From Beroe forskalii (Eukaryota; Ctenophora; Nuda; Beroida; Beroidae): DNA of 64,000 bases. Positions 33,331 to 56,155 of this stretch are shown here, piece after piece. Where the stretch lies: contig WFMF01000002.1 in assembly GCA_011033025.1 (NCBI GenBank), forward strand, positions 2,108,001-2,172,000. Reading direction: 5' to 3'. The notes under the pieces are model-generated. The model saw nothing but the letters and a program-made list of their open reading frames with translations. It was not told where the DNA came from and did no database searches. The position numbers were made by a program, and so were the translations under genes. The number at the start of each line of letters is the position of its first letter. Within the stretch, counting starts at the first letter, position 1.

Positions 33331-33332
33331 TA

Positions 33333-33563: not shown

Positions 33564-34200
33564 AGACCCCCCATTTCTAGGGGGACGGCGACATTTTCAG
33601 TTTGTCATTTTTCTTGCATGTTTTGACACATTTCTCGGCGCTTTTGTCACTTTTGTCGTTTCGACACTTTTGTATTTGACACCATTCTGTCATAGTCTCT
33701 TTTGTTTCATTTTGGACAGTTTTTGACGCTTTGTCGCGTTTTGACCTTTGTACTCTTTTACTGTTTGTCGCTTTTGACCCTTTTGTCGCATTTAGTTTTT
33801 GGCGCATTTCGACGTTTTGGCATTTGGCGCTTTTGGGTTTTCCTTTTTGGCTTTTATCGCATTTTTGACCTTTTGGGCGCCATTTGTCGTGTTTATCAGG
33901 TTGATTTACGTCATAAAATCAGTTTGATGCATCACATGGCACTCATTCCATAGAAGTGATATTTCTCATAAATCGGCCTTCGTGCAAGCCTAAAAAGTGG
34001 GCGTGGTCCAGACAGGAGCCTTGGAGAGAAATATCGTTGGTTGCATCGCGTTTCTCTGCATGGACTGTATATAATGCGGATTCATTCTACATTAATTCTA
34101 GTATTTTACGATTTTGGGCGCGAAGTGCCATAAATGACCGTGGCCCAAAATGGGTGGCGACAATGAAATAATTATAAACATTGTCGCCAAGTCTAAAATC
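33564..34200. repeat. TTTTGTCGC-rich low-complexity region and GGCGACA inverted motifs
   Basis: From 33590 to about 33890, T-rich sequence with repeating TTTTGNCGC-like words; CTAGGGGGACGGCGACA near the left end and GGGTGGCGACAATG / CATTGTCGCC near 34150-34190 hint at an inverted-repeat element. No gene recognised. Confidence 0.45.
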
Positions 34201-34693
34201 CAATGTCTTATCTATAGAGGTGTATGGGTATACTAAAAACATAACAAAATACTGAATATCGATTTCCTAATTCAAAGATTGACATAAGAGGCGGAAGAGA
34301 CTAAATTGTGAATCATCAGCGGTTACCCTACAGTTGTAAGGTCTCCCTGCCATCGCAAAGAACCATTTCCAACTTTGTATAATATAATTAAACATTCCAC
34401 ATGCACGGTATTCCATCTGATCTTTTATTATTACGAATTTTAACTGAAACTCTCGATCTTTTACTAAAATAACTAAATATACTTTTTTGGCGTACCTATC
34501 TATCACTTATTCTACTATTCTAAAATCACTATTATAGGTACTAAAATTTTAATCTAACTTTTGATTTAAATTTTAATTATTTTTGAAATGAAATTTTATT
34601 TAAATATAATGATACTCCGACTGTTAGGTCTAAACAATTGGAGCTTTCTCAGCTGTATATAATATTATTTTGATTCAAATTTCTTTAACTCAG

Positions 34694-35249
34694 CTGATAG
34701 GCAACTATGTCTCGTTGTTAAATCAACATTTGACGGGCAGCAGAGCACAGGTCACCGGAAGCAGAGTCCTCTTTACTCCTGGTACTCTGGTAGGTACACT
34801 CCTGATACACTGAACCAGCCTGAGCATATTATTATTAAAGTATTAAGAGATTAAGATATTGGCCCGTATCAGAAAAGAGGGATCCCCTTAAAATCGGGAA
34901 ACGCTTAAAAATAAGGAAAATGCTCCAAAAGTAAAGAAAAAGGTCGCTTGAGGAGCATAGGGTGGGTTATGACTTATGAGTGGAAAGGGGTGGGTTATGA
35001 GTGGAAAGGGGTGAGTTATGAGTGGAAAGGGGAGGGTTATGAGTGGAAAGGGATGGGTTATGAGTGGAAAGGGGTGGGTTATGAGTGGGTTATTATAGGT
35101 ATTTTATCATTGATAAATACTTTAATTACTTAGTAACCTTTCAGCCACAGTCTGTAAGCTGTGACTGCAGTTCCTCTGGCTGCGTTGTTTATCAGTCGTC
35201 AAGAGAAGCTTACGCCGCCACAGAGCCGTACACCATCGCAGAAGAGTGA
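34694..35249 (+). CDS. Possible two-exon coding fragment (uncertain)
   Basis: Two stretches with good splice sites: 34694-34789 (acceptor TTTAACTCAG, donor GTAGGT, 32 codons, LIGNYVSLLNQHLTG onward) and 35145-35249 (acceptor CCTTTCAG, ending TGA). They join in phase into about 66 residues. I do not recognise the protein and see no upstream start. It may be a fragment of a gene interrupted by repeats, or chance. The intron contains a 21-bp minisatellite. Confidence 0.25.
34955..35090. repeat. Minisatellite, 21-bp unit TATGAGTGGAAAGGGGTGGGT
   Basis: About six tandem copies. The open frame across it is translated repeat. Confidence 0.8.
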
Positions 35250-35513
35250 TCGTCAACAGTCGCAACTCGCAACACCCACAGATTCACAGCCAAGCACAGG
35301 TACTGACACTGGGCCAGCATAGGAGCATATCAATAGGAAGTATTTCTGAAAATGTTATTGCTTTAGACTTGTTTGAAAAAAAACCCACAATGGGGCTGCA
35401 GGCATGTGCCGAAACATAAATAAAACTACATTGAATGTAATGGTTAAGTAAGTGAGTAACCACAATCAATCAACAATGATCAACTCCTAGCCGATTGCCC
35501 AATTTGGGTGGGC

Positions 35514-35708
35514 GACATGTCATCTCACGACATTTCATCTCAGGACACTTCATCTCCGTGTCCTGACCCTAACCATAACCCTAACCCAAACCCTAACCCA
35601 AACCCTAATCCTTACCCTAACCCTAACCCTAACCTTTGCGTAGAGCTGACACATTGCGAGATAAAGTGTCCTGAGATGAAGTGTGAAGTGTCGTGAGATG
35701 AAATGTCC
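35514..35708. repeat. Small inverted repeat around a telomere-like CCCTAA core
   Basis: Flanking words such as CATCTCACGACATTTCATCT recur inverted at 35666-35705 with a core of CCCTAA/CCCAAA repeats (about 35565-35635). The core resembles the animal telomere repeat but is short, degenerate and enclosed. Similar GAGATAAAGTGCCGTGAGG words recur near 36400, 38240 and 38545. A poly-C run follows at 35711-35726. Confidence 0.6.
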
Positions 35709-35751
35709 GTTCCCCCCCCCCCCCCCAATTTATAGGCCTTAAAGTTAAATA

Positions 35752-36212
35752 CCTTAACCTCCGAAAATATAGTCGGCCTATTTCTTAGTCTAAATTCGAA
35801 TTTCGACTATAAATTTGGCAAACCATAATTATTACCGACTATAGAAACCGCAGACTTCAGTTTTCCCATCATAATTTTTGTAGGTTTTTGGGATTCAGCA
35901 TATTATGAGAGAGCAACCTGGTCTGAGAATGGATTGATACGGCGTCATTCTAGCATTTGAGATCGTTTTGTTAGAATTAAGAATGTTGTAGGGATGTACT
36001 CAGTCAGCCATACTAAAATTTACGATTTTCGATAATCGGAAATAGAAATTTAAGGAAAAACGCTTTGAAAATCAAAATTTGAGGCTTGAAATCGCCAAAA
36101 ATGCCGACTAAAACTTTGGCCGACTATATGCCCAGACCCTCTGTGACTAACATTTTACGACTATAATAATTCCGACTATATTTCTACCCAACTAAAATAT
36201 TGGAGGTTAAGG
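35752..36212. mobile_element. MITE with CCTTAACCTCC ends and TA duplication
   Basis: Terminal inverted repeats CCTTAACCTCC / GGAGGTTAAGG with further inverted words (TATAGTCGG) just inside; flanked by TA at 35750-35751 and 36213-36214. 461 bp, non-coding. Confidence 0.8.
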
Positions 36213-36478
36213 TATACACAATTACCATAACCCTATTAGTATATTCCATAATATTAATATGAACAAATGTATTATAGAGTTACTAGATTCTTGCAAGTTA
36301 GGGTTTATATGGTTAATATGATATGGGTCAGGGTCAAGGGTTTTGGTAAGGTTCGGGTTATGGTTAAAACTTAAAGTCAGAGTCAGAGAAAGAGAGAGAA
36401 AGTGCCGTGAGGTAGTGTCGTGAGGTAAAATATCAAAACCTGTAATATGGGAGGGTTCCGTTAAAACTTGATTATCTG

Positions 36479-39400
36479 CTACTGCATTTGGCTATGATCC
36501 TGCGCTGCAGGTTCGTTGTCGATAAAAACTGTCTTCAAGAAATGGAGGCCACCCTTTTCGAAAGAGCTCTGGATAGCGTCAGGATAGCGGTGCTTCTGAA
36601 ATTGGATAAAACTTTGGTACTTTGGTGACAATGACACGTTACGATTTTTCATTTACAAGCATTAAGTTCACAATTGAGGTACTGATATGACATATTAAAT
36701 TAAGAAACCTTCTTCAAGATCTTTGTGGGGACCTTTTCCACGAGGTGGTTAAGGTACAAGTCAGAACTCAGCACCAATGCTTCCAATGCATGTCCGAGGT
36801 TGCGTTGGAAGCTTCCATGCCATGAGCGATGTGCCCTGATAAAGAAATTGACACCGTGACCAACATTTTAAATTATCATAATGAATGCTTTGGACGACTG
36901 GCTAAAAACTGTTGGACTTAAGTCCACAGCGGACCCTCAGCGGGTCCGCTGTGGACTTCACTAAAGTCCACCATGGAAAATTTTTTGTGGACTTTGGTGG
37001 ACTCCAGCTACGGACTTTTTGAAAGTCCGCCACGGATCAGTGATAGACACTCCACCGAAAAAGTCCACCAAAACAGTCCGCCGCGGAGTGAAATCGCGTG
37101 GAGTAAAGTCCACCTCGGAGTTTTTGTCCACCTGTGGAGTCCACCAATGGAGTCCACTACAGCGTAGGCCAATATTTATAGAGTGGAGTCCACCAGCAGA
37201 GAGGGGCAAAGTTTTACCACAGGAACATGGCCAAGATTAGCCTCCATAAACCTCCATGGAAGCTCAGTGGAGGCTCCATGGAGGCTGAGTGGAGCCTAGT
37301 GGAGGATGAGTGGAGCTTACTCCTAGTGGAGGCTGAGTGGAGACTAGTAGAAGCTGAGTGGAGCCTAGTGAAGGCTGAGTGGAGCCTAGTGGAGGCTCAG
37401 TGGAGCCTAGTGGAGGCTCAGTGGAGCCTAGTGGAGGCTCAGTGGAGCCTATTGGAGGCTGAGTAGAGCCAAGTGGAGGCTGAGTGGAGCTTAGTGGAGG
37501 CTTGTTGGAGCCTAGTAGAGGCTGAGTGGAGCCTAGTGGAGGCTGACTGGAGCCTAGTGGAGGCTAAGTAGAGCCTAGTGGAGGCTGAGTGGAGGCTGAG
37601 TGGAGCCTATTGGAGGCAGAGTGGAGCCAAGTGGAGGCTGAGTGGAGGCTTGTTGGAGCCTAGTCGAGGCTGAGTGGAGCCTAGTGGAGGCTGAGTTGAG
37701 CATAGTGGAGGCTGAGTGGAGACTAGTAGAGGCTGAGTGGAGCCTAGTGAAGGCTGAGTGGAGCCTAGTGGAGGCTCATTGGAGCCTAGTGGAGGCTCAT
37801 TGGAGCCTAGTGGAGGCCGAGTGGAGCCTAGTGGAGGCTGAGTGGAGCCTAGTGGAGGCTGAGTGGAGCCTAGTGGAGGCTGAGTGGAGGCTGAATGGAG
37901 GCTGAATGGAGGCTGAGTGGAGCCTAGTGGAGGCTGAGTGGAGGATCAGTGGAGCCTCCTGAAGGCTGAGTGGAGCCTATTGCCCTAATGGAGGCTGAGT
38001 GGAGGCTGAGTGGAGCCTAGTGGAGGCTGAGTGGAGCCTAGTAGAGGATGAGTGGAGCCTAGTGGAGGCTCAGTGGAGCTTAGTGGAGGCTGAGTGGAGC
38101 CTAATGGAGGCTGAGTGGAGCCTAGTAGAGGCTCAGTAGAGCCAAGTGGAGGCTCAGTAGAGCCTATTGGAGTTTTTTAGCCGAACGACTTACTATAAGT
38201 ATATTTATAGGACAGAGTTAAGGTCAGAAGAGCGAGATAAAGTGCCGTGAGGTAAAAACTAAAAGTATACTGTACTCCTCATTTTCATTGGTCAATTGGC
38301 ATTACGAGATCATATAATCTCACCTTGCGAAGCGTACATGCTTTTGAAGAGCTTCTATTCCCTCCTCCGACATCTCACTCAGTCCACGTCCATCATTTTC
38401 CTCGATGATTTCCCAGCTATGTGCTAGAACCTGGATCAAGGTAAAAATTAGAAGTTTGATTGGGAAATATAATTGAATTGAATTGAATTGAATTGAATTG
38501 AATTGAATTGAGTAAAACAGGAAATGGTCAAGATAAACCGATTAAGTGTCGCGAGATAGAATGCCCTGAGATGTAATGTCCAGTTTAAGTTTAACAACGA
38601 TACAGCATTTTTCTCAGTAAAAAACGATAGAAGTCCGTAGAACTTACAGCGTGTAGGGTCTCATTCATGACGGCCCAAGGGAAGTGATGAATTATGTGAA
38701 TCCCTATGAGATGGCACACCCTTTTGTACACGTCGAGATTGACTTTCCTGTTGGAGTTTATCACCCTGATCACAACGTGTAACAGTTCTGATATAAGAGC
38801 AAGCTTTTCGCCCTTAGCCTTGCTTGTCATGATTTCTGGAAGAACGTCTTTACCATAGTAGATGAAATCCTTTGCCTTGTTTCCTGAAATAGATGCAATT
38901 CATTTTATACCAACTGCTATAATACTGCGATCAACGAGTACCTTCTTTTTTATAAAAGTGAATACCAGCCTGTAGGTGAAGTTACAAATGATAGAAATTT
39001 ATATCAAGACTTATGGTCAACTTATGAATATGTGATAACCTACTAATCCTCCTCCAGTATGTCCGCTGCCAACATCTTTCAGAACTAGCTTAAAACGACC
39101 ATGTTTCAACTGAAAATATGATATGTTTATATACTATCGGGCATTATTAGAGTATTTGGGTGGACATTTATATAAGTCCAATTTATATAAATTGATTCAA
39201 CCAGCCGTGCGTGGTCAATGGCCATTTTTTTGAAGGTTTTACTTCTATTCCAATTACAGCCGTACGGCCAATGACAGGAATCGAAGGATTCAAGTATAAT
39301 CAAGCCAGTGACGGTTAAGGAAGTGTAATCCATACTTTCGTCGCCCGAGACTTCGCTGCAATGGGCAGCTCCTCATTTAACCCTCCCGCACAGTTTCCTG

Positions 39401-42400
39401 TACGCTCGGCTGAGTGAACCGTCGGGCTGCATAGGCTCAAGATGAATCTTTTACCCTTAGCTCAGTGGCGCTGGACCGGAATCGAACCCCGGATCTTTCG
39501 ATCCTGTGCTCAACTCGATACCAATACACCACTGGCCAATACCAAGAGGAAATTGCTCAAAATTGACAAGAAGTGTATAAATCACCTTATTCAGAACAAC
39601 ACTCTCCTCTGCACTGAAAAGATCCTTTAATTCACCCGTCATGTTCCACTGTTCTTTTCCGTCGTATTGTTTGTTGGCGGCGTAGCTGAAGTTTTAATTA
39701 TTTATCATATTCATAATTTAACAGATAACGTCATGAGATCTAAATTCTAATTGCAATAGCATTTGTCTTGAATCTCTTGAAAATTTATTAATTTATCGTC
39801 ATATTTAGGCAAATGAAAATCGCTTGTCAGTTGTCCAACGCCGATCACTGATTAGCGCCGATCAGCGCCTACCAGGCGCTGATCGGCTATATACCGCCGA
39901 TCGGCGATGATGGAAAATCGACCTCTCCTTTCTCTATTAGCGGTCGTCAGCGCTGATCAGCACCGATAGAAAGAGGTCAAATTTCCATTAGCACTCTACC
40001 TTAGTACATGAAATTAAGAACTCCGAAAATTAAGAACGCACATTATTAGGCAACACCAAATTAAGCATTTTTCATAGCTATTTTGCTTATTATCTATCAT
40101 ATCAATTTTTGACGTTACACCAAATTAAGCATTTTTTGCGGCCTGAGTGCTTAATTTTCTGCTTACTTAATTTCATGTACTAAGGTATATCGGCGTTGAT
40201 GAGCGCGCCAATCGGCGCTGACAACTCCCGATAGATTGAGGTCAATGTTCCATCATCGCCGATCAGCGCCTATAGGGCCGCATAGGCGGTACAGCCGATC
40301 TGCAGCGCCTGGTAGGCGCTGGACAGGTGCCGATCGGCGCCGAGTCGTTGATTTTGCAATAATATGATCAATTGCCATATCGCTAAAATAGATGATTTTA
40401 GTATTCAATGGACTCTTTGAACATTTGAAGTAATAATTACATGTTTGATTTCACTGCAACAGTCAGAACCCATCTGGCGATGTTAATTGCTGCATGAGTT
40501 ATGACGATACCATGTGCGATTCCGTAAGGTATCTGTGTCCACCCATTCCTATCGCCACTGAGCATCTCAACGTCAATTGTGCCATCTGCGGCCAGGAACT
40601 TCTTGTACTCCTCCATTTTCTCTTCTTTGTTGAACTCAATGAAGGAGTCCTGTGATCATTAGATTATGTCCTATTTTCAGTATCATAATTAATATCACTT
40701 GTTTGGCTGCGGAATAATGTGCAGAAAAATGCAGAAAATACCTATTTTGGAACAGCAACTCACATGCACCCTGACTCCTCCTGCCGTATGATACTGAGCT
40801 TGTGTAATACTGCACAGGGTGCAGTATGCCCCTCCACGTCCCATCATTGCCTTGCGAGACTTTCCGTCCAATTTGCAAGTCTTGTATTCGCAAAATACCG
40901 CAAACTCTGTTTTGTCAACCTTGTATGTGTAATGCCACTTTCCGTCAGGATAACTGGGTAATTGATTAGTATATATAAATGATCGATGACCATTATTAAT
41001 ATTTATAATATTGGTGGATTAGAAATTTGGCGTAATCATTACACCGAACAATTTTTCCCGCGCCCACCTAGTATATAGCTATATGTCTAGGCAAAAATAT
41101 ATGAATATCAGATATCTTACAAATTGTTTGCATTATTTTGGAACTTCAAAACGATACCTTATTGGCCTTTATTTAGCCGGTCTGTTTTTAACCGGCCCTA
41201 TGGACAAAATCGAATCATTTTTGAACCATTTTAACCGGCCCCTTGGACAACATTTCTTCAAGTGGTTGCCAAACCAAGAAATTTTTGCCCGAAAATAGTC
41301 ACGAAAACGTACTTATACTGTGTAAATTGCATCAAAAACCCATATCCTGGTCTAATATCATGATTCAGGTCATTATTTGTGTTCTTCAATGACGGTCAAA
41401 TGAATTTAACACTACATAAGTAGTAAAAGTTTCATCTGACCTTAATCAACTGGGCTTTAATTAAATCGGCCCCAGTTTAATACCGGCCATTTTTTAACCG
41501 GCCCTTTGGACAAAAATATCAAAGTTGTTTTGTCCTTAAGGGCCGGTTAAATAAGGGCCAATAAGGTAATAGGGAAAATAATGAGCGCATGACATATAAT
41601 TTGGCACACATTGAAATTGCTATTCAACTATATGAACTTTGATTCAACCAGCCCTTAATTTAACCTTGTAATTAGTGGCCTTATTGTCAAAAAATTATCC
41701 AATTAACTGAAAACTATACAATATACCTTTCCATTAGATACTGTTGCAATTCAGCTGTTTCCTTCTCCATGACCAGAGAAAGCGGCTTAAGATTCTTGTA
41801 AGAGCTGGGATCTTTGACTCTGTAGAAAACTTTTCCAGGGGTCACATCTGGGTTACCTTCTTCTAGAGTGTCGCCCTGGTACGGTATATCTTTATAAGGA
41901 GACAAACTGATAGTTATGATAAAGATTAGCTTATAAACATGTTTATAAGATAATAGCTTATAGACATCGATAGTACGAGCGAATGTCGCTGACACCCTGC
42001 CCCACGAGTGTGACACACGTTGCCATGTCATTGTTGAGTCACGGGATGTGTCAGAGCCGTGTCAAAATTGTTTCGTTTTCAGTAATATAACTATATAACA
42101 CTTGTATCGCGGCAGGTGTGTCACAGATGTGTCGCAGGTGTGTCAGCGTCATTAGCTCGTACAATCCAATATGATGTTTAGGTATTACGAGGTTGGAAAT
42201 ACCTTATCGGACATAATTATCACGGACATTACATTCACGCTGAGCACCTCAGCGTGAATATTAATGTCCGTGAAAATTTTGTCCGTGATACTTATGTCCG
42301 TGATTTTCAGGTCCGTGAAAATCAAGTCCGGTATTTCCTCTTAAAATTTCTTGGGTAGAGACGCAAAATTTCTGACTTCATCTCATTAAATGCACAAATA

Positions 42401-45400
42401 ATAAAATTTTTAAGGAAATTATACTTCTTTTTCATGCTTAGTACCAGCAATATGGAAATTTATCATATCAATTAACGAAAAATATTGAAAAAATCTTCAA
42501 TTCAGAGTATTCAAATCGTGGAAGGAAATGGGAAAAATCGAGCCGAAAATTTAGAATTTTCACATGAAATTTTAAGTGGCAGGATCGAGCGTGAATATAT
42601 TTATGTCCGTGAAATTTTAGGTCCGTGAAACTAAAGTCCGTGATAATTATGTCCGATAAGGTAAGACAGTACCTATACTGTGACGGCAACGATTATCAAC
42701 CGCCAGGATTTTTTTCCAATTTTCCAATTCATGAGAGCAAATAAAATCTGTCCCAGTAATTATACAGGGTGCGCCAAAAGTCTTGTCCCCTTTTACTTTT
42801 TTGATTATTTGAAAGATACAGCAGATATTTCGATTTTCTAAAAAGTTTCTTTAAATATAACCAAAGAATGGCGGATTCTGAGATTTTTAGGTTGCTGTGA
42901 CGTCCATAGCAACGACAGGAGTTCCCATAGCAACCGACCTAAAAATTGAAGATTTTTTACATTTTTGACATATAGATCAAGACCACATTTTATCTTTTGA
43001 TTGGTCATCATTAAGGAAAGATATTTCGATTCTGTGAAAAGTTTCAGTGATCATAACCAGTCAATACTGAATCCTGAGATTTTCAGGTTGCTATGACTTT
43101 CATAGCAACCACACGAGTTTCCATAGCAACCAGAATCAAAATGGAAGAATCTGGGCTTCTTTAAAAAATAAAACTCGCTAATTGCCATTTATTTCAATTC
43201 TATTGCTGGTAGATAGGGTAGTAAACACTACAAAATGTTCAATTACAGTGAATCTAATTCAATAGGGGTTCAATGCATGTTCAAAGTAGTCTCCTTGGGT
43301 GGAATTTGGGGCTAATTTCAGTGAAAATCCTTGAATTTTAAGCCTGGTTGCTATGGAAACTCGTGTGGTTGCTATGAAAGTCATAGCAACCTGAAAATCT
43401 CTGAATTCAGCGTTGACTGGTTATGATCACTGAAACTTCTCACAGAATCGAAATATCTATTTTTTATGATGACCAATCAAAACAGTAAATTTGGTCTTGA
43501 TTTATATGTCAAAAATGCCAAAAATCTTCGATCTTTAGGTCGGTTGCTATGTGAACTCGTGTGGTTGCTATGGACGTCACAGCAACCTAAAAATCTCATA
43601 ATCCGCCATTCTTTGGTTATATCTAAAGAAACTTTTTACAGAATCGAAATATCTGCTGTATTTTTCAGATAATCAAAAAAGTAAAAGGGGACAAGACTTT
43701 TGGCGCACCCTGTAGTTGCTTATTTGTAGATTATATAAGCTGACCCGGTTAACTTGAATTGTATAGGTCCTTTCAACGGCAAGCAATTGCGATTGTTACA
43801 GATGTGATTGCACTCAAAAATTATAAGATTCTTCGTTTGGCAACAAACTTCATTAATTTTACCAAATGAGTAATTATGGTCTACCATTATCGCAAAAATT
43901 GTCTTATTTGAGAAAAAAAACTTACACTTTTTTCTTCCGCACTGGAGCAAGTTATAAGAGTTACTGCAAATGTCTGACAGGATTTTAGACTATGTCCGGC
44001 CTTCGATAACTTCGACGTGTTGCTATCGAAGACTTCTTGGTGAGATGAAGCCCCGTCCATACCTGAGAAGGGAGTAAACTATAGTATTCAAAAATGAATT
44101 AATAGGTCTAGGGTAATTCATGAAACAAATGTCCTTGAGAAGGAAATTCCTTGAAAACGGCCATGCATTTAAGATTCCATCTATTTACTTATCCACTATG
44201 ACGCAGATGCACTGCACAGCTTAATAATTTACTAATAAATTCTAACTCGCGCAATTTTATATTATATAGCGCTTATAAGTGGGAAAGCTTCTATGCGCGT
44301 AAAACTAAACAGAAACTTGAACTTATAATCCTCGCTCGCGTTTTCACCTTCCAGATAAAATATAATTCGATAATTCATGCGAAATTTTGGAACAATTACC
44401 TAAATAGCTTGAGGTTTTCTAGAAAATTTAGTCGGGAGATTATCCAAACAAATTTCCATAAATTTGTCATTGATGCAACCGACATTCAGTCGTTTTTCAG
44501 TATTTTCAGTGATCTCACTGTAGTGAAATAATATTTTCTTAATCAATTTATCTCAAGGTTCTGGAAATAATTTCAATCCTGACCACAGTAAATTTCATCT
44601 TTGAAATATGCTGTGGTCAGGATTGAAATTATTCTCCGGAAACTCGAGGTAAATTCTTAAATTGGCTGAGAAAATATTCCCAGTTTTAGGTGTGCCGATT
44701 GTGCGGCACATTTCAATATAGTTATGCGAAATGAAACGTTACGACATGATCATGGTTGGAAACGACGAATTGGTTATCTTCTACCGCCTATTTCTGTGTT
44801 CAACTTTGGTACAGCGCTTCAGACATTCTGCCACACCAATTTCTGAGAGACTCAAAGTCTCAAAGTTTTAAAGTTTTAGAGAATAGTTACCCACTATAAT
44901 ATTGTCTTTTTGTACATACGAAGAAATGTCACGATCAAGCAATGTCACGTTTCACTCTCATATCTTAAACTATGATAATGAAGTCATTTTTGTGTTTTGA
45001 TAACCCCTAATTGCACAAAGGGTCGAAAATCAGTTCAAATATTGAATTATGTTGCTGGGGGTCCTCCACGAACGGAGATAAGTACACTTAAGGAATACTT
45101 ATGATCGATTTTAAGAGTGCTCCTAAATATTCTGTTCACGAAACTTGAGTTAAGAAGATATTTCGCACTTATCTTTTTCTTCTTACGAACTTCCTAAATA
45201 TTTAAGAAGACTTATCATAAACCCTTCCTAAGTCTGCGTTACCCTCCATATTTGATGCGTGAGTCAAACGTGAGCTTAATTGGGGTCTTCCTAACTCACT
45301 AAGTGCACTTAACTTTCTTCTTAACTTCACTATATTTAGGTGCATCACTAAGAGCGGTTTTATCCTTCTTAACGTCTTCTTAGCGTGATCCTAACTCGGG

Positions 45401-48400
45401 AATGGGATTCAATTTCAATCAAATAATTATCATATCGCCCCGCATTATTGAGTTAGAACAGTAAATTGGAAATGTTTTCATAGCAGCGATAGGAAATACT
45501 ATCTTAATTAGGTTATGCTTGGCGTGACACAAAATCAATTATCCTTTCTTGGCCTCTGATTGGCTTGTGCACTATACATGTGATTTGCGTTAGCTTAATC
45601 ACGTGTCACATCCTACAACACTTAAGAAGGGTTTCGTGGACAAGAAAATCCATCTTAAAAACAATATTGGTTAAGAAGAAAAGTTTCATGAACAGGAGCT
45701 CCTTCACGAAACATTTAGGAAGGCATTAGGATTTCCTAACTGAAAGTTAGGAACCCTTAATTAGATTTGATGTTCACGAAACTCCACTTAGGAACACTAT
45801 TTTCTATTTTAGGAATTCCTAACTCGGTCTAGAATTGTGTTTAGGAATTCTTAATTTTGTCGCTCCTAAGTCCGCGTGAGACCTCACGATAATTGCGTGA
45901 TTCCTAAAATGGTGTTCCTAGGAAGTATTAGTTCCCGTTCCCCAAATTATATCGCTCCTAACTTTTTCCTAAGTGCTTCCTAAGTTGTCAAAAGTTAGGA
46001 GAGCTAAAATGGTGTCCTAACTCCAAATTCCTAAATTTTCGGTGTCAATTTCACGCTGTGGCTGGGAGAATAATCTAATTCATAGCTGAAAGAGAGGTAA
46101 TTCTTACGGGAAGATGCTACTTCCAATTACCCCACGCAGAAACGTTGCCCTCCGACCCTCGTAGTTGATGGCATGATCTGTAATTTCTAAACCATTCGTT
46201 AGCCAATATAATAAGAATTTAGGGAGATTTAAGATCAAGCTGACTAATTGGAGGAATTAGGAAAACACAGCAATAAATCAAGGAAGTCATATTAGGATAG
46301 TTAAGACTCCAATTGTTTTTACTTGTTAAACTTAGAGAAGTGATGATTTGTTGATTTCAATCTGAATCAGGTGTTTCCTGCCCGAGGATTTGATGGTATT
46401 TTCAAATCCTTAAGTTCTGTGCAGCTGTTTTTAAACGTTGGTATCTCGTGCTTTTTCACTTCAAGAATTTGTTTTTTAGGACAAACCCCTCAGCCTTGAT
46501 TATCTGCAGTTTGCAATGCTCCACTCCTCTAATTCAATAACACCGGAGCAGCGGTAATCCAATAGAAACGGGACACTTTGATTGGCTTGTGTTTGTTTTA
46601 GGAGTATCAACACGTGATCAGATAATTGCGTGATCAGAATTCCTAACTGCAGTTTCGTGAACAACACCTCCACTAAGAATCTCAAATAGATTTAGGAAAA
46701 TAAATTTCGTGAACCCTTCCTAATTTGTTTCCTAAGCGTTTTCCTAAGTTACTTTCCTAAATGTATTCCTAAACTGCACTTAGGAATTTCTTTCGTGAAG
46801 GAGCTCCAGTCACAACTCGCGTTCCTAAATATGAAAAGTGTTCATAACTTTATGATCACTTTTAAGAAGGAAGTTTCGTGGAGGAGCTCCAGGGGCTCCT
46901 TCACGAAACATTTAGGAAGGCATTAGGATTTCCTAACTGAAAGTTAGGAACCCTTAATTAGATTTGATGTTCACGAAACTCCACTTAAGAACACTATTTT
47001 CTATTTTAGGAATTCCTAACTCGGTCTAGAAATGTGTTTAGGAATTCTTAATTTTGTCGCTCCTAAGTCCGCGTGAGACCTCACGATAATTGCGTGATTC
47101 CTAAAATGGTGTTCCTAGGAAGTATTAGTTCCCGTTTCCCAAATTATATCGCTCCTAACTTTTCCTAAGTGCTTCCTAAGTCGTCAAAAGTTAGGAGAGC
47201 TAAAAATGGTGTCCTAACTCCAAATTCCTAAATTTTCGGTGTCAATTTCACGCTGTGGCTGGGAGAGTAATCTAATTCATAGCTGAAAGAGGTAATTCTT
47301 ACGGGAGGATGGTACTTCCATTTTCCAATTACCCCACGCAGAAACGTTGCCCTCCGACCCTCGTAGTTGATGGCATGATCTGTAATTTTAAACCATTCGT
47401 TTGCCAATATGATAAGAATTTAGGAGATTTAAGATCAAGCTGACTGATTGGAGGAATTAAGAAAACACAGCAATAAATCAAGGAAGTCATATTAGGATAG
47501 TTAAGACTCCAATTGTTTTTACTTGTTAAACTTAGAGAAGTGATGATTTGTTGATTTCAATCTGAATCAGGTGTTTCCTGCCCGAGGATTTGATGGTATT
47601 TTCAAATCCTTAATTTCTGTGCAGCTGTTTTTAAACGTTGGTATCTCGTGCTTTTTCACTTCAAGAATTTGTTTTTTACGACAAACCCCTCAGCCTTGAT
47701 TATCTGCAGTTTGCAATGCTCCACTCCTCTAATTCAATAACACCGGAGCAGCGGTAATCCAATAGAAACGGGACACTCTGATTGGCTTGTGTTTGTTTTA
47801 GGAGTATCAACACGTGACCAGATAATTGCGTGATCAGAATTCTAACTGCAGTTTCGTGAACAACACCTCCACTAAGAATCTCAAATATATTTAGGAAAAT
47901 AAATTTCGTGAACCCTTCCTAATTTGTTTCCTAAGCGTTTTCCTAAGTTACTTTCCTAAATGTATTCCTAAACTGCACTTAGGAATTTCTTTCGTGAAGG
48001 AGCTCCAGGTATCTAGGAATTTGGAGAAACAATGTAAGTGGGATTGAGATAATTTCTTAACATACACACGTGCGAGACAGGAATTATACCCATGCCTGGA
48101 GAAATTCCCCTCGAGTTCACGACGGGAGCTGAAAAATGAAAAAAAAAAAACGAACTGAAAACTTCGAGAAAATTTTAATTACTGTTGGAATATCAAATTC
48201 AACTGTTGCCAAATAAACTGCCGGTATAGTTCCATGTTCCAATTGAAAATTTGCTCTGGTGTACTGTATTGAAGCAAACTATTTTGAAACTGAACAAACC
48301 GTTAACTCTGGCAATATTACCTGATTTTTGGAGTAAAACGATATAACATAAACGGCTGTTAGAGTTAACCAATAGCTGTTGACTGCAATTTTGATGTCCA

Positions 48401-51400
48401 TGCCGTTACATACTTTTTCGAGCTAGTAGGGGCCAAGGCCCCCCTATTTGTTTTCTGGGGGGGGGGGGGGGGGGGGAGGGGGAGGGGCTTTTGAAAACTA
48501 AGGGGGGCCTAAATTTTCATTAGCGAATTTTCCCCATTGAAAAGTCCTATAATTTTGCATAAAAATATGTAACTAAAATCATGTTTACTGTTTGCTTTGA
48601 TTCCGAAGAAGGATTCCTAAGATGGATTTCAAGGAAACTTAAGTTTATTTGCACTTTCTTTCACACTTCATTTTAGGACATTTTAATGTTCAAATTTTTG
48701 AGAAAATCTTAGGCCCCCTAAGATTTTTCTAGGGGAGCCTTTCCTATAAAAGGGTAGACCTGCCACCCCCCTCCCCCTAGGCCGTCAAGTCATCAATTCA
48801 GTTTGACACCGGACTGAATCAGTTTACCGGTAAATACAGATTTTCAGCTCGATGTAAAACCTTCAAATTTCCCCTGCAGTGGGCTTTTGTGGCTTAAGTT
48901 TCAGAAAATGGGTTTTGGAGCGGCCGGCTCCAAATATTTAAAAAAAACCTTAAAATTTGCGGGAAGTTGTTGTAAAGGTGAAACCAAATTGTTTTGGTAC
49001 TTCAGTATACTGAAGTACCAAAACAATATGGTTTCACCTTTACAACAACTATCACTTTCTGTGAGCGAGGTAGCTTGACCAAACTGAGGATAAAATCTCG
49101 AGAACTGAAAATAAACTTTTTTCCACTGGAAATACTGCGCTTCATTTTCGTGAAGAATTTTATCCATTTTACTCTCTATACGGAAGGCTAACTGCGAAAG
49201 GCTGTTTAAAGTTGACATGGAGGATAACATTAAACTGTAAAAGCTCGACTTTAGTCGAGCTCTTACAGTTTTAAGTAGTATGAATCTCTGTGAATTCACA
49301 GAAATTCATACTACTGAAGCAGCATATGTTACTTAAATATTGATTATTAAGATAGACACCTACCACCACCAGCGCTTATAAACTGTGTTGGACCATGTAA
49401 AGATAGGAACCTATATTAACAAGGTTGATAACATAGCAGATAGCCATTTAAAATTACCTTGGTAAAACAGCATATGTAGGACCACACGAGGTTGTCCATT
49501 AGCAATAATATGCTTCAATTCTAACAGCTGTTGCAAGCATTGCTTAACCATGTCAGAACGCTTGATGAAGACCCCAACATTTATGGTCTCCTCACTCCCA
49601 TCCTCATGTTGAACCGTAACTGGCCTGTTTGAAATTTGTTATGGATGTGTGAATTAAAACAAACCCGCCACAATTGATAGACTCGAGGGCGTAGCCCAAT
49701 TAGTTTGCATAATCCACGATTTTTGCAAGTTCACCTGAATTCGCGGCGAATTCGCCGCGAATTCAGGTGAATTCAGGTGAATTCAGGTGAATTCAGGTGA
49801 ATTCAGGTGAATTCAGGTGAATTCAGGTGAAATCAGGTGAATTCAGGTGAATTCAGGTGAATTCAGGTGAATTCAGGTGAATTCAAGTGAGTTCGCGGCG
49901 GAGTCCGCCAAAAAAATATTTTGGCGGACTCCGCCGGAGACCGCCGCGAATTCACCTGAATTCGCCTGAATTCACCTGAATTCGCCGCGAATTTGCCGCG
50001 AATTCAGGTGAATTCAAGTGAATTCGCGGCGGAGTCCGCCAATTTTTTGGCGGACTCCGCCGCGAATTCACTTGAATTCACCTGAATTCGCCGAATACAC
50101 GCGGATTCGGTGTACTATAGTTTGCCAATTTTCCAGTTCACCCAGGTACGCCCAGGTGAACCCAGGTGGACAAGTTCGCCGCGAATTCGTGGCGAACTGA
50201 CGTCCGCCGCGAATTCGGGTGAACTTGGGCAAACTCAGGTGAACTCAGTTCGCAGCGAATTCACCTGAACTTTGAATGAACTTTGTCAAGCTAATGTAAG
50301 GTTGAAGATGCGATTAACAATGTCTACCGTATTATGTGTGACGTCATGGATCCAAAGAACCTTGTATTTGTAATGCTTCAGGGTACTCGGGGCACAGAGC
50401 ATATGTTGACTTTGCAATCGGCGCCGATTCACCGCCGATATAGGCGCTGCACTGATTTAAATCCATGCATACGGAGCCTTATTTTGGGGTGTGTTATGAG
50501 TTGATTGGGTTATGTTATGAGTTGATTGGGGTGTGTTATGAGTTGATTGGGGTGTGTTTTGAGTTGATTGGGGGTGGGTTATGAGTTGATTGGGGTATGT
50601 TATGAGTTGATTGGGGTGTGTTATTAGATGATTGGGGTGGGTTATGGGTTGATTGGGGTGTGTTATGAGTTGATTGGGGTGTACTACGAGTTGATTGGGA
50701 TGTGTTATGAGTTGATTAAAGTATGTATTGAGTTGATTTGCGGTGTGTTATGAGTTGATTGGGGTGTGTAATGAGTTGATTGGGGTGTGTTATGAGTTGA
50801 TTGGGGTGTGTTACGAGTTGATTGGGATGTGTTATGAGTTGATTGAGGTATGTAATGAGTTGATTGGGGTGTGTTATGAGTTGATTGGGGTGTGATATGA
50901 GTTGATTGGGGTGTGTTATGAGCTGATTGGGGTGGGTTATGGGTTGATTGGGGTGTGTTATGAATTGATTGGGGTGGGTTATGGGTTGATTGAGGTGTGT
51001 TATGAATTGATTAGGGTGTGTTATGTGTTGATTGGGGTGTGTTATGAGTTGATTGGGGTGTGTTATGAGTTGATTGGGGTGTGTTACGAGTTGATTGGGG
51101 TGTAAGAGTTACCTGTCAGTCAGGTAAGAGTCATCAGTGGGCCAGAAAGAAAGTAACCAGTGGGGCAGGAAAGATTCACCGTATGAATCAATCCTCTTGC
51201 ATTCATAAGTAACCGTATTAAACTCCTACATAGCCCTCACATACTCTGTGAAGCCTTAGATTGTTCAGGATTGTGGAGGCTTACGCAGGACCGCACACAT
51301 AACCCACTCCAATCAACTCATAATCAACCTCAATCAACACATAACCCAACCCGAACAACACATAACCCACCCCAAACAACACATAACCCACCCCAATCAA

Positions 51401-54400
51401 CTCATAACACACCCTAATCATCCCATTACATACCCCAATCAACTCATAACACATCCCAATCAACTCATAACACACCCCAATCAACTCATAACATACCCCA
51501 ATCAACTCATAACATTCTCCAAACAACTCATAACACACCCCAATCAACTCATAACACCCCAATCAACTCTTAACATACCCAATCAACCCACAATACACTC
51601 CAATCAACCCATAACCCACCCCAATCAACTCATAACATACCCCAATCAACTCATAACATACCCCAATCAACTCATAACCCACCCCAATCAACTCATAACC
51701 CACCCCAATCAACTCATAACCTACCCCACTCAACTCATAACACACTCCAATCAACTCATAACATCCTAATCAACTCACAACCCGCCCCAATCAACTCATA
51801 ACATACCCCGATCAACTCGTAACATACCCCAATCAACTCATAACATTCCCCAAACAACTCATAACACACCCCAATCAACTCATAACATACCTCAATCAAC
51901 TCATAACCCACCCCAATCAACTCATAACACACCCCAATCAACTCATAACATACCCCAATCAACTCACAATACACTCCAATCAACCCATAACCCACCCCAA
52001 TCAACTCATAACATACCCCAATCAACTCATAACATACCCCAATCAACTCATAACCCACCCCAATCAACTCATAACACACCCCAGTCAACTCATAACACAC
52101 CCCTATCAACTCATAACACACCCCAATCAACTCATAACCTACCCCACTCAACTCATAAACACTCCAATCAACTCATAACACACTCCAATCCACTCATTAC
52201 ATACTCCAATCGACTCGTAACAAACTCAAATCAACTCATAACAATACCCGCATAAAACTTTTTGAAATTCAGTTAACGTGAATTCACGTGAATTCATGTG
52301 AACTCAGTACAAGTGAATTCATGTGAATTCACGTGAATTCACGTGAATTCACGTGAATTCACGTGAACTAGTCCGCCTGAATTCGCGGCGAACTGCTCAG
52401 AACTGCTCAGGCGAACTAGTTCGCCGCGAATTCGCGGCGAACTGGCAGTTCACTTGAGTTCACCTGGGTGAACTGGAAAATTGGCGAACTAGTACACCGA
52501 ATCCGCGTGTATTCGCGGCGAATTCAGGTGAATTCGCGGCGGACTCCGGCGGAGTCCGCCAAAATATTTTTTTGGCGGACTCCGCCGCAAATTCACTTGA
52601 ATTCACTTGAATTCGCGGCGAATTCAGGTGAACTTGCAAAAATCGTGGATTATGCCAATTAGTTATAAAATGTGACATCAGTTAATTTGAAAGGGGTTAA
52701 CAGCCATAACCTCTCTCGAGCTTTCATTGCCTTAAATATACTTTCATCAGGTCGGACATTGCGATTGTAATTGTTTAATTCCTGTTCAATTCCTGTTTAA
52801 TTCCTGTGACCTACGGCATCAAATATGGACGAAGTTACTATTTACAGTATTACCATAACGCATAAGGGCGAACACCTGAGTTCGGTTATAAATTATTAAA
52901 ACTATGTATGCAGATTCATATTCAGATTATAACTACTGTGGTGAGTAACGACTGGTTACTGCTTTACTGGTCATAACAATTACCAATAAAATTCTTACTG
53001 CAGTAGGTAGTATTTTGATGTTGACGACTTCTTAGGGAATCATATTTGTTTATAGTCTCATATAGATAGCTGGCAATCGTGATGTTTTAAATATCGTATC
53101 GGTACAGCTATGGAAATATGACATTTGCCCACCTTCCTAAAGTGTAAGGTGGAAGTCTCTTTTTCCTCTCCCGTCGCAGTGCTCGTTCACCAGGCACGTA
53201 GAGGTCAAATTTCTTCGCAAACTGGGACATACTCGTGGCCGTTCTTTTGGTAGCTTTAAGATTAACCATATGAGCCTGAATGAAATTTATGAATCAAAAT
53301 ACCATATCGGACATAATATACCGGGTGTACCACGAAAAACGTTACAAAAGTAAACGTTTATAACTCGGCTTCTGTTTAGAATTTCTAGATGAAATTTTGA
53401 AATGTCATAGATATAGGCTGAAAGTTTTTGCACAAAAAGTTTGAAGCGTCCAGCTCAAAAATTGTCTGAGTTATCAACAAAAAACCGCTTTTTCGGCCAT
53501 ATTTCAGTTTCTGAGAGTCAATTACTCGGCTTGTGTTCAGAGTTTTTTAATGAAATTTTGGGATGTCATAGGTATAGGCTATAAGTTTTTTTGCGCTTAT
53601 CTCTGTTTCTTTGCCCATATCTCTGTTTCTGGGACTCAAAAATGTTAGCTATTCTAGGGTCATATTGGTCAGATGTTACCCGAAATATCCTGGAAGTTTC
53701 ATCAAGATTGCTCGAAAAACCTCGGAGATATGCGCGTTATTACAACGTAAAAAGTTGTTTATACGCAAGCGTGCACAGTTCTAACTTCCTCTATGACACA
53801 TTAATTACACGCTATACTGATAACATGTAAACAAAAAGGCTTATATCTCCAAGACAATTCTTGAGTTATACGCTTCAAATTTTTTGTGCAAAAACTTTCA
53901 GCCTATATCTATGACATCTCAAAATTTCATCCAGAGACTCTAAACAGAAGCTGAGTTATTTAAACGTTTACTTTTGTAACGTTTTTCGTGGTACACCTTG
54001 TTGTTATACAGCCGGGATATATAAAGAATAAAGACGGAAATTAACGTAGGCGCTCGAAGGAAATTAGAAAATTCTTTTGAAAATTTGGAACATTTTTTTC
54101 AAAACACCGATTATTGCTAAGTTCAGTTTAATACTTCAATTTGCTTGGACTGAACTTAGCATTAAGTGTTTTTTAAATAGCCACGTAATTAGGAAAAATT
54201 TCAAAAGATTTCAAAATGGCCGAATATTTCATATGGCCGGACATTTAAAGTCGACTTTAAATGTCCGGCCATATGATCAGGGAACATAATTTGGATATAC
54301 CTAATTCAAAATTATGGCTTGAATATTCTTCCAAAATCGCTTAACAAGGGCCTGCAGTGACCGATGATGTGATATTTTTTATCATGGGTCCTTTCAAAAT

Positions 54401-55023
54401 CGCAAAAAATCATCCTATGCAAATTAGACAATTGTAAGTTTAATTGTTCACAAATCACAGTTAAGCTATGAGAATTCTTACTAGGGCCTCCAATGCTGTT
54501 GGGCTGGTTCTCTTCCGTAAGTCACTAGAGGCGTAAATCTTTCTCAGAACTTCATCAATGCATACCCTAGGCACGTCTTCACTCCGGCATATCTGATCAA
54601 TACAAAAAGATAAAACCATTATATACATCAGAAGAAATTGAATTGATCTTCAAATTTAAAAAAAGATCAAATCACTCTTCGCTTCTGTTATGTTCGCATA
54701 GATTTTCAAATTTCTACTGCCGACAAGTCAACGTCGAATTCGGGAAGAAATGAATCAGTCATTTCTTTACATCATTATATTTTATAAATAACAATGGAAA
54801 TAGTTCATTCATGATAACTCACCTCATCTATAGCAAACAGAACCTTCTTCCAGCATTCTTCAATTCTATAGTCTTGACCCTGGCGACTCAAACTGTTGAA
54901 CTCTTTTTTCCGCTCTCGAGAATTCCTTGGAGTGACACTCCCACTAAAATCGTAAACAACGTCATTGTCAGGGAGATCAGCTTTCCAACCTCTGGATGTC
55001 GTGATCTTTCTCAGGTTATCCCT
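36479..55023 (-). CDS. RAG1-like recombinase/transposase (RAG1/Transib superfamily), multi-exon, N-terminus incomplete
   Basis: Fourteen - strand exons (5' to 3'): 54823-55023, 54482-54592, 53133-53275, 49458-49624, 43926-44062, 41727-41875, 40764-40953, 40470-40649, 39586-39685, 39040-39109, 38648-38883, 38324-38430, 36709-36835 and 36479-36595; all junctions agree in phase except 40470/39685. In the resulting roughly 677 residues: D210 (GMDGASSHQ), D332 (KLDGKSRKA) and a Glu near 587 (SEEGIEA) correspond to mouse RAG1 D600/D708/E962; C347/C350 (AYCTLC), H560 and H565 (LHAVLAH) correspond to C727/C730/H937/H942. Spacing is 122 and 255 (mouse 108 and 254). GSGHTGGGLVGNKAKDF resembles the motif shared by Transib relatives. 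Such enzymes cut DNA at paired terminal repeats by hairpin formation. No ATG, RING or upstream exon was found above 55023, where a truncated zinc-finger duplicate begins. The E8/E9 junction may hide an exon or indel. Confidence 0.85.
36900..38182. mobile_element. Foldback with a 21-bp minisatellite, in RAG1-like intron
   Basis: Ends GGCTAAAAACT and AGTTTTTTAGCC are inverse; flanks GACGACT and GAACGACT look like an imperfect 7-8 bp duplication. The left part (36913-37200) has AGTCCACNNNGGA-type inverted words; the rest (37240-38165) is about forty copies of GTGGAGCCTAGTGGAGGCTGA. Open frames here are translated repeats. Confidence 0.7.
38468..38512. repeat. (GAATT)n microsatellite
   Basis: About nine uninterrupted GAATT units in the intron between exons ending 38648 and starting 38430 of the RAG1-like gene. 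Confidence 0.9.
39345..39540 (-). mobile_element. tRNA-derived SINE-like sequence
   Basis: On the - strand, about 39540 to 39465, a tRNA-like 5' region shows an A-box-like GTGGTGTATTGGTATCGA and a B box GGGGTTCGATTCC at normal spacing, but the anticodon arm is a GGATC-GAAA-GATCC hairpin, not a 7-base loop, so it is not a functional tRNA. It is followed by about 120 bp of body (CGGTTCACTCAGCCGAGCG region). Inside an intron of the RAG1-like gene. Confidence 0.45.
39838..40330. repeat. Palindromic GATCGGCGCTGATCAGCG repeats split by a MITE
   Basis: GC-rich words built from GATCAGCGCC and its inverse on both sides of a 187-bp insertion; many short palindromes. A related word occurs near 50420-50450. 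Confidence 0.65.
39999..40185. mobile_element. MITE with CCTTAGTACATGAAATTAAG ends, TA duplication
   Basis: The 20-bp terminal inverted repeat is perfect on both sides; TA at 39997-39998 and 40186-40187. Interior motif AACACCAAATTAAGCATTTT is shared with the longer relatives at about 31397 and 58030. Confidence 0.85.
41157..41566. mobile_element. MITE with CCTTATTGGCC ends, TA duplication
   Basis: Ends CCTTATTGGCC and GGCCAATAAGG, subterminal CCGGTTAAA/TTTAACCGG words repeated in both orientations; TA at 41155-41156 and 41567-41568. 410 bp, non-coding. Confidence 0.85.
42202..42661. mobile_element. MITE with CCTTATCGGACATAATTATC ends, TA duplication
   Basis: Perfect inverted repeats of at least 26 bp, continuing into repeated GTCCGTGA words; TA at 42200-42201 and 42662-42663. 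460 bp, non-coding. A fragment of the same end appears at 53302-53318. Confidence 0.9.
42775..43712. mobile_element. mariner-type foldback with CAGGGTGCGCCAAAAG ends
   Basis: Arms of about 420 bp are inverse copies with scattered differences, including GGTTGCTATGGACGTCA words; ends CAGGGTGCGCC are typical of Tc1/mariner-like elements, with TA at 42773-42774 and 43713-43714. The centre is unique AT-rich sequence; no transposase. Confidence 0.85.
44529..44682. repeat. Inverted repeat with a perfect 23-bp stem
   Basis: 44566-44588 and 44611-44633 are exact inverse copies around CCTGACCACAG; the arms extend imperfectly outward to AATATTTTCT words. Confidence 0.8.
45061..46888. mobile_element. 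Relative of the 1.1-kb element, interrupted by a fresh copy
   Basis: Left end GTCCTCCACGAA and right end TTCGTGGAGGAGCT are partial inverse copies; interior rich in CTTAAGAAG/CCTAA words. Positions 45697-46805 are a separate, younger insertion; the remaining sequence (45061-45696 plus 46806-46888) is about 720 bp. Confidence 0.6.
45697..46805. mobile_element. 1.1-kb inverted-repeat element, copy 2
   Basis: Near-identical to copy 1 over its entire length. Flanks ACAGG and CCAGT do not match, unlike the other copies. Inserted in the related element described above, inside the intron between RAG1-like exons 4 and 5. Confidence 0.8.
46894..48004. mobile_element. 1.1-kb inverted-repeat element, copy 3
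   Basis: Same orientation as copies 1 and 2, slightly more diverged, flanked by CCAGG on both sides (46889-46893 and 48005-48009). Lies at the exact right end of the interrupted relative. Confidence 0.8.
48005..48958. other. RAG1-like intron sequence with a poly-G run
   Basis: No exon recognised. A run of about 20 G at 48459-48478 with G-rich flanks, and CCCCCC-rich words near 48430-48440 and 48760-48780. Confidence 0.5.
48965..49316. repeat. Cluster of three long hairpins
   Basis: 48965-49050 is a near-perfect palindrome centred on ACTTCAGTATACTGAAGT; 49237-49266 (AGCTCGACTTTAGTCGAGCT) and 49275-49316 (TATGAATCTCTGTGAATTCA and its inverse) are further stems. Open frames here are by-products. 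Confidence 0.8.
49706..52655. mobile_element. 2.95-kb giant foldback with inverted minisatellite arms
   Basis: Ends TGCATAATCCACG and CGTGGATTATGC are inverse and flanked by an exact 9-bp duplication CAATTAGTT (49697-49705; 52656-52664). Order from the left: 10-bp GAATTCAGGT repeats with GGCGGACTCCGCC hairpins, about 30 copies of the 21-bp unit TGTGTTATGAGTTGATTGGGG, a unique centre (51106-51290), about 45 copies of the same unit inverted, and inverted GAATTCACGTG repeats. It fills the intron between RAG1-like exons 3 and 4. Flank length suits Mutator-like or Drosophila FB-type elements. Confidence 0.85.
53331..54001. mobile_element. Foldback with GTGTACCACGAAAAACGTTA ends
   Basis: Arms of roughly 150 bp or more are inverse copies (AAGTAAACGTTTATAACTC; CATAGATATAGGCTGAAAGT); centre AT-rich. 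Ends resemble mariner-type CCGGGTGTNCC. Target duplication not resolved. Confidence 0.75.
54116..54275. repeat. Hairpins including a perfect 46-bp palindrome
   Basis: 54230-54275 reads CATATGGCCGGACATTTAAA then its exact inverse with no loop. A second stem at about 54116-54160 pairs GCTAAGTTCAG with CTGAACTTAGC. Confidence 0.9.
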
Positions 55024-55284
55024 CTGCACAAAACTCTGATTAAAGTTAAAAAAATACAAATTAGCAGTGAAGGAATAAAGGCCATCGTATGAATAGGCAT
55101 TGTTAGTGTGGAAATAACATTAGATTTCACTGCCAAGTGGATACTGATCAATGTACAGCTTCAATCAACCATTCAATGGGTAGATTATTAAAGCATCAAA
55201 ACATAAATTACTAACATAACGGTTTATGCTTGTCGCTGCATCCTTTTTTACTCTATTCGGGCATTCATAAAAAAATTCCCAAAA

Positions 55285-56136
55285 GAAAAAGACATGGGTT
55301 GTTAACAAAAAATCTGTCTATTCAGATAAATGTCCATACCAATGCAGTGAATGTGATTCAAAAATTCAAAGACCGCGGTTCTTTAAAAAACATTTGTGTA
55401 TTTGTCATGATCTTAATGCAAGTGATGTTCATCTTTTCAATGCAATGAGTGTAATGAAAGTTTAAAAGGAAAAACGATTTAGTTCAGCATTTGAAGCTTA
55501 ATCACCCTGATGCCAATCCATCACTGTGATTGGTGCAATGAACAGTTCAAAACAATGTCAGATTTAACTCATCATTCAAAAACTAATCACTCAGATAAGT
55601 ATCCTCATGGATGCAATCAGTGTAACAAAAAGTTCAAGTTCAGAGCTGAATTGATAAGGCACGTAGTTGTCCATTCAGATGACAGTCCATACCATTGTAA
55701 TGAATGCAATGCTAAATTCAAACGAAATGATGGTTTGCAATATCACATGAAAACTGTCCATTCACACTCCTTGCCATATGAATGTAAGCAATGCAGTGTG
55801 AAATTTAAAAAGATTGCATATTTCCAAAAGCATGTCAAAATTGTCCATTCAGATACTCGACCATACCAGTGCAGTGAATGTGATGCTGCATTTAAACGCA
55901 ATAAGAATTTAGTAACTCATCACAAGGTTGTTCATACAGAACATCGCCCGTTCAAATGCAATCAATGTAGTTCCAAGTTCAAACTAAAGTGCACACTCAG
56001 TAAACATGTTAGAGATCTTCATTCTGGGTGCCCTTATGAATGCAGTCAATGCAATGCTAAATTCAAGTTCAAAAGACTCCTGTATAACCACAAATGTACT
56101 CTACTTGCCCTCAAAGCCTGCCCAGATCTAATGTAG
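55285..56136 (+). pseudogene. Truncated zinc-finger copy D (copy B relative) with several indels
   Basis: Homologous to copy B from GGTTGTTAACAAAAA onward. The first 230 bases carry multiple one- or two-base indels; from about 55522 the frame is clean for fingers 3-9 and ends at TAG 56134-56136 with nearly the same residues as copy B. The N-terminal SUMO-motif repeats are absent. The left limit of homology is about 260 bp from the last recognised RAG1-like exon. Confidence 0.8.
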
Positions 56137-56155
56137 TAACTCATTACTCAGTATA

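Follow-up and report, generated by a model that had tools for sequence, protein, structure and literature searches.

Proteins of the HzTransib/RAG1 type dimerise, bind DNA sites in pairs, and nick DNA and form hairpins by means of a DDE triad. V(D)J recombination is the well-characterised host use of the superfamily, and the cases proposed in sea urchins lie on the RAG1L branch. Mouse RAG1 has its catalytic residues at D600, D708 and E962 and its zinc ligands at C727, C730, H937 and H942 (as quoted in an earlier note on the DNA analysed here). Ctenophores may be the sister lineage to the rest of the animals. Six ctenophore Transib-like proteins appear in Tao et al. (2022, PMC9435367), whose Transib clan includes proteins of Mnemiopsis and Pleurobrachia, and the sea-urchin genes PlRAG1La/b were judged domesticated in the accessible text of PMC9885083. 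We found no description of an intron-rich resident Transib/RAG1-type family in ctenophores in the open-access literature searched; Transib and RAG1 go unmentioned in the accessible text of a survey of transposon-derived transcription factors that includes ctenophores (PMC10027918), and both words are absent from the accessible main text of the Beroe ovata genome paper (PMC11184263).

Here we describe a locus in a window of 64,000 nucleotides from Beroe forskalii (contig WFMF01000002.1, positions 2,108,001 to 2,172,000) that we consider likely to belong to an old, intron-rich, resident ctenophore gene family derived from a Transib-like transposase, with the window copy beheaded; the family has probably been domesticated. 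The locus resembles Transib (HzTransib, PDB 6PQN) in being its best sequence match, in its DGK...CxxC and HxxxxH...E layout and in having no RAG1L-type tail, but differs in its exons, at least 14, its longer ZnB linker, the purifying selection on two isolated copies, and in that no TIR/TSD or young copies were found. With the RAG1L of ProtoRAG and invertebrate RAGL elements it shares the DDE/CCHH core, several exons and a long linker, whereas its score against them is weak, no CTT motif is present, a paired RAG2L was not seen and no TIRs were found. PlRAG1La/b are likewise immobile and multi-exon, with several paralogues and pseudogenes, in the accessible text (PMC9885083), but they come from a different phylum and, it appears, from a different superfamily branch, with the window family on the Transib side. 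Vertebrate RAG1 has corresponding catalytic residues and zinc ligands at roughly similar distances, but differs in giving neither a PDB match up to E 10 nor a RAG1 Pfam match.

Results

Gene structure and superfamily membership

Between positions 55023 and 36479 of the window, on the minus strand, 14 exons (A–N, Table 1) chain in phase into a frame of 691 residues and one stop. All the exons that the earlier note had reported were thus present, with no stop inside the chained frame, and the spliced 2073 bp are free of frameshifts. Every internal exon end lies at AG or GT, and the ends of 12 introns are regular GT-AG. The weakest splice site, and the sole odd one, is the GTGTAA donor of exon E, which is needed to keep the frame open into exon F. 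Because splicing in the earlier note had been done by eye, its residue numbers were off by 0 to ~14: D210 stands, D332 becomes D336, the Glu near 587 becomes E601, C347/C350 become C351/C354 and H560/H565 become H574/H579, all of these residues being present. The spacing that it had compared with mouse RAG1 (D-D 108, D-E 254, H-H 5) holds for the two histidines, which are 5 apart, while the other distances are now 126 and 265 instead of 122 and 255.

Table 1 Coordinates of the gene and its surroundings in the window, with identities to the paralogue on contig C202.
Feature	Position	Strand	Remarks
Exon A	54823..55023	-	201 bp, cag...gtgagt; 45% to C202 exon A
Exon B	54482..54592	-	Spliced frame; 66% to C202 exon B
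Exon C	53133..53275	-	Spliced frame; 75% to C202 exon C
Exon D	49458..49624	-	Spliced frame; 56% to C202 exon D
Exon E, first catalytic Asp D210 (GMDGASSHQE)	43928..44062	-	73% to C202 exon E
Exon F	41727..41889	-	Spliced frame; 64% to C202 exon F
Exon G, second catalytic Asp D336 (LDGK), zinc ligands C351, C354 (YCTLC)	40764..40953	-	77% to C202 exon G
Exon H	40441..40649	-	Spliced frame; 64% to C202 exon H
Exon I	39586..39685	-	Spliced frame; 39% to C202 exon I
Exon J	39040..39109	-	Spliced frame; 45% to C202 exon J
Exon K, zinc ligand H574	38648..38883	-	63% to C202 exon K
Exon L, zinc ligand H579 and catalytic Glu E601 (SEEGIEAL)	38324..38430	-	72% to C202 exon L
Exon M	36709..36835	-	Spliced frame; 65% to C202 exon M
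Exon N with stop codon, C-terminal tail without Cys	36479..36595	-	C202 counterpart read by eye
Probable remnant of exon 0, last ~14-20 codons (...NRVKKDAATSINRY then gttagt)	55216..55275	-	tblastn with C202 exon 0
Segment carrying the gene, between two zinc-finger gene segment copies	33566..55287		Self-blastn
5'-truncated zinc-finger gene copy, frameshifted; neutral-decay yardstick	55288..56133	+	Against 30458-31311

We compared the spliced protein with PDB sequences using phmmer, where HzTransib matched with E 1.7e-8 and amphioxus RAG1L (6B40) with E 0.066. A two-sequence profile of the window protein and its C202 paralogue gave HzTransib as the best match (42.1 bits, E 3.6e-10) and amphioxus RAG1L as the second (17.4 bits, E 0.011), with nothing beyond these two up to E 10. 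Vertebrate RAG1 chains, which we take to be present in PDB, gave no match up to E 10 in either search. The significant alignment to HzTransib covers profile positions 462-655 of 706, from the ZnH2 region to the C-terminal domain, and includes E601 and H574/H579, while D210, D336 and the CxxC pair lie outside it and are putative assignments by motif and conservation in C202. The E values against HzTransib, together with a paralogue elsewhere that keeps the same exons, argue that the family match is not due to chance, and bear out the earlier reading of the protein as a RAG1/Transib superfamily member with intact DDE and CCHH residues.

Neither Pfam (RAG1 Pfam included) nor NCBIfam matched the window protein, and Pfam matched neither the C202 protein, its parts, nor the frame of a further relative, C300. 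The only NCBIfam line for C202, a staphylopine enzyme match (E 0.011), has the look of chance. Genome profile searches with Pfam RAG1 and Pfam RAG2 were silent, as were the controls of the first and all 14 controls of the second. Among 125 pattern-matching stretches of genome contigs and 100 of viral contigs, no relative was confirmed. The N-terminal third of the protein had no detectable relative; a nonamer-binding-domain reading of exons A-B was based on SLTRQGQKYR, which presumably resembles mouse RAG1 sequence, and was dropped after a PDB search of these exons gave no RAG1 match.

Two 1.1-kb repeats occur inside intron D/E (45695-46807 and 46888-48013) and a third copy at 19871-20991, the three being 96-99% identical with inverted GGAGCTCCTTCACGAAA termini. 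Elsewhere in the window, tandem 3'-5' exonuclease-like frames (ERI1-like by eye) at 10313-11131 and 11644-12270 are 74% identical in DNA.

A diverged paralogue under constraint

The paralogue on another contig (C202:50749-60860) retains all of exons A-N and carries a further one upstream, exon 0, in which no CxxC pair occurs; no first exon with an ATG was found there. The two proteins are identical at 428 of 683 aligned residues (62.7%), with pN 0.233 and a saturated pS of 0.782, and identity at codon positions 1, 2 and 3 is 73, 81 and 42%. D210, D336, E601, C351, C354, H574 and H579 (window numbering) are all identical in C202. Twelve of the 13 introns are common to both genes in position and phase, the sole mismatch being E/F (phase 1 vs 0), and DNA matches between the loci are the exons plus one dispersed repeat (assigned by eye). 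With pN low against saturated pS and intact frames in both copies, the pattern is that of purifying selection on two isolated copies.

Apparent loss of the 5' end at a zinc-finger duplication

The window match to exon 0 covers residues 79-98 of the C202 exon, 20 residues with 45% identity. Taken by itself it is weak (E 2.0 within the window), but it lies on the right strand ~190 bp from exon A and reaches the last exon residue in phase 0 with a GT donor. Genome matches to the rest of exon 0 were found at C202 only (3 matches in all), and the retained window exons have no in-frame ATG before residue 107. Immediately upstream, a zinc-finger stretch (55288-60195) matches 30458-33565 at 93-97% in a self-blastn comparison, the right copy being interrupted at 56156-57965. 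The original 5' end of the window copy appears to be gone, cut off at ~55,280 by the duplicated zinc-finger segment, probably in the same rearrangement as that duplication. The earlier note had missed this truncation, and the gene seems to have had at least one further exon upstream. False haplotype duplication is made less likely by the single genome match of a neighbouring gene, with no second haplotype seen there, but the junction may be a misassembly.

We used the duplicated zinc-finger segment to gauge decay. Its truncated gene copy differs over 845 aligned bp by 1.8% mismatch and 6 gaps, each of a length not divisible by three; several of the gaps fall in homopolymers, where they could be assembly errors. 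In the remaining 2181 bp of the duplication there are 16 gaps and 2.9% mismatches. At the rates of this larger part, a frame of 2073 bp would escape every stop and frameshift with a chance of 0.0006, compared with 0.033 when its gap rate is cut to a third and 0 of 5000 trials with the zinc-finger yardstick. The calculation presupposes a single event behind truncation and duplication; if that holds, the improbability of an intact frame at neighbouring decay rates favours continued constraint on the window frame after truncation. These rates also bear on the reading of the window copy as a dying duplicate, a beheaded young pseudogene that leaves C202 as the sole working gene. The cut exon 0, the late first ATG and the E/F junction shifted relative to C202 are consistent with such a fate, which we nevertheless regard as a possible but unlikely one, given an unbroken frame next to a zinc-finger copy with six gaps (several in homopolymers) and ordinary ends at the other twelve introns.

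Mobility and the wider family

Transposon termini were sought as CAC..GTG pairs with at least 14/20 matches and 4-5/5 TSD bases in flanks of 7-9 kb, although the 5' flank of the window gene before the zinc-finger junction is only ~264 bp. The screen returned no pair for the window gene and none for C202, compared with 0-2 pairs per shuffle in five shuffles of each. Between the window flanks there are two 44-bp inverted matches (89-91%), both of which fall within the duplicated zinc-finger segments. The dispersed repeats examined in the introns and downstream have TACCTTATCGGAC-, GGAGCTCC- and TACCTTAACCTCC-type ends, not CAC-type ones. One dispersed repeat of ~470 bp at 35748-36216 has TACCTTAACCTCC ends and ~40 listed genome matches at 79-90% identity.

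Relatives in the genome (216 Mb, 1134 contigs) were assessed by a six-frame search with the spliced window protein, in which the best 50 places were scored. The window gene accounted for 14 and C202 for 12, followed by C1112 (8), C469 (5), C300, C166, C447 and C870 (2 each), and C1024, C980 and C614 (1 each). The 24 places outside the window gene and C202 were at most 63% identical, and no near-identical second copy was among the 50, identity outside the window gene being no higher than 77% per exon. C300 is ~26% identical to the window protein, and C614 is an intron-bearing homologue of the C300 type, 33-60% identical to it per exon (stretches below E 0.1), that matches the window protein directly in two short stretches (39% and 48%). 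By eye, introns F/G, G/H, H/I, J/K and K/L of C614 are at matching places (the G/H acceptor having been chosen to fit), whereas L/M is unmatched, K has an extra intron, exons I and J are fused, no clear donor follows J and exon L looks frameshifted. Since introns are common to the window gene, C202 and C614, the intron-bearing form appears to predate the divergence of these lineages. The copies at C300, C469 and C447 are intronless across several shared intron positions and mostly broken.

Two clusters on C1112 (112959-117861 and 133686-135765) contain eight scored places resembling exon H (13 local matches), at intervals of ~0.6-1.2 kb, a layout suggestive of tandem multiplication of one exon. 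Intronless Transib-like fragments at C447:22000-38500 and on C469 have nearly the same start, and two of them lie just downstream of reverse-transcriptase-like frames (by eye); they may be retrocopies, or fragments carried with a non-LTR element.

The earlier note had taken the fragmentation of the gene as a sign of residence. Introns by themselves do not carry that argument, because amphioxus ProtoRAG and the RAG1L of sea urchins likewise have several exons in the accessible text of PMC9885083. The conclusion that the gene is resident rather than mobile is retained on better evidence, namely selection, introns common to diverged paralogues, and no TIR/TSD or near-identical copies found. The same evidence bears on whether the locus could be an old, low-copy, intron-bearing Transib/RAGL-type transposon, now immobile and intact through recency or horizontal arrival and not through host selection. 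Membership of the superfamily, the multi-exon structure of mobile or formerly mobile relatives (ProtoRAG and urchin RAG1L; accessible text of PMC9885083) and the Transib-like proteins reported from ctenophores (PMC9435367) lend this idea some appeal, but the saturated synonymous divergence of two intact copies with common introns, next to a search that found no TIR/TSD and no near-identical copies among the scored places, makes it in our judgement quite improbable.

Transib or RAG1L

Whether the protein is RAG1L or Transib, which had been left undecided, can now be weighed. The window sequence LDGK...YCTLC compares with MIDGK...CYLC in HzTransib and VDEK...CTLC in amphioxus RAG1L, both in stretches where the alignment is not significant. 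Exon N has no cysteine in the window copy or C202, so that the Cx2Cx3GHx4C tail is missing, a motif that virtually all RAG1L of protostomes and of invertebrate deuterostomes possess according to the accessible text of PMC7204232. The length of the ZnB linker points the other way: C354-H574 spans 220 residues, compared with 165 in HzTransib (C227-H392) and 207 in mouse RAG1, and D336-E601 spans 265, compared with 211 (D208-E419) and 254, where the HzTransib distances were counted off printed alignments whose D/C part is not significant and the mouse distances follow from the positions quoted in the earlier note. In this respect the window protein would be nearer RAG1 than HzTransib. A longer ZnB region is shared by RAG1L, bacterial Transibs and Subgroup I Transibs (Tao et al. 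2022, PMC9435367), of which Subgroup I is said to carry CTT1 (Tao et al., PMC9435367); CTT1 is absent from the window protein.

Because HzTransib scores higher (42.1 vs 17.4 bits) and the RAG1L C-terminal zinc motif is missing, we provisionally place the protein on the Transib side. A RAG1L gene of the ProtoRAG lineage that lost its RAG2L partner would share the DDE and CCHH arrangement and the long, mouse-like ZnB region, but is very improbable in view of the E value of only 0.011 for amphioxus RAG1L, the absent tail, a DGK like that of HzTransib and not the DEK of amphioxus (both alignments insignificant there), and no RAG2-like frame noticed by eye among the listed window frames (up to ~18 kb and beyond ~23 kb).

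Mitochondrial contig

One contig of the assembly (C1134, 13.3 kb, 17.5% GC) is mitochondrial, with TGA within COX1 read as Trp. Pfam recognised 6 of 10 frames or frame parts (COX2, COX3, CYTB, ND1 and two Proton_antipo_M), COX1 was also found, and the recognised genes are all on one strand. ARAGORN found no tRNA gene and Rfam no rRNA. After the presumed ND5, frames of 368 and 313 aa (7546-8649 and 8929-9867) had no Pfam match. The published Beroe forskalii mitogenome has, in the accessible text of PMC6991124, no tRNAs, no ATP6/8, code 4 and two unidentified frames after ND5 of 384 and 222 aa. From its sequence, the contig fits ctenophore mitogenomes, and this description especially.

Discussion

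Our preferred reading is that of a resident ctenophore gene family that would derive from a Transib-like (RAG1-superfamily) transposase, and the Transib-like proteins reported by Tao et al. (PMC9435367) from ctenophores could be orthologous to it. The protein would keep the RNase H-type DDE core and a zinc-binding domain and, by homology, most likely still binds and cuts DNA with Transib/RAG-type chemistry, as a homodimer without RAG2; retention of cutting is suggested because DDE and CCHH residues are strictly conserved between copies whose synonymous sites are saturated. Both genes, window and C202, keep intact frames under constraint and show nothing that points to recent mobility. The window copy seems to have been rearranged into a zinc-finger cluster with loss of its 5' exons, and might now be expressed from a new first exon or internal ATG, or be a recently beheaded copy.

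Several observations weigh against this resident-family reading. With no start codon visible and exon 0 cut, the window copy may be on its way to becoming a pseudogene, and, as intron-bearing elements such as ProtoRAG exist, the family may represent an extinct or horizontally arrived element. The E/F splice site is atypical, and the N-terminal third is without a detectable relative.

A further-reaching possibility, which we put forward as speculation and think rather unlikely, is that ctenophores possess a domesticated, catalytically competent recombinase family of Transib descent, independent of RAG1-RAG2, that makes programmed DNA cuts, for example in somatic or germline rearrangement or in element surveillance. 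Even without such a role, a resident Transib-side family with an intact catalytic core in a ctenophore would suggest that this recombinase was tamed more than once, and without RAG2, and the C202-type protein offers a testable candidate for host use of RAG-type cleavage.
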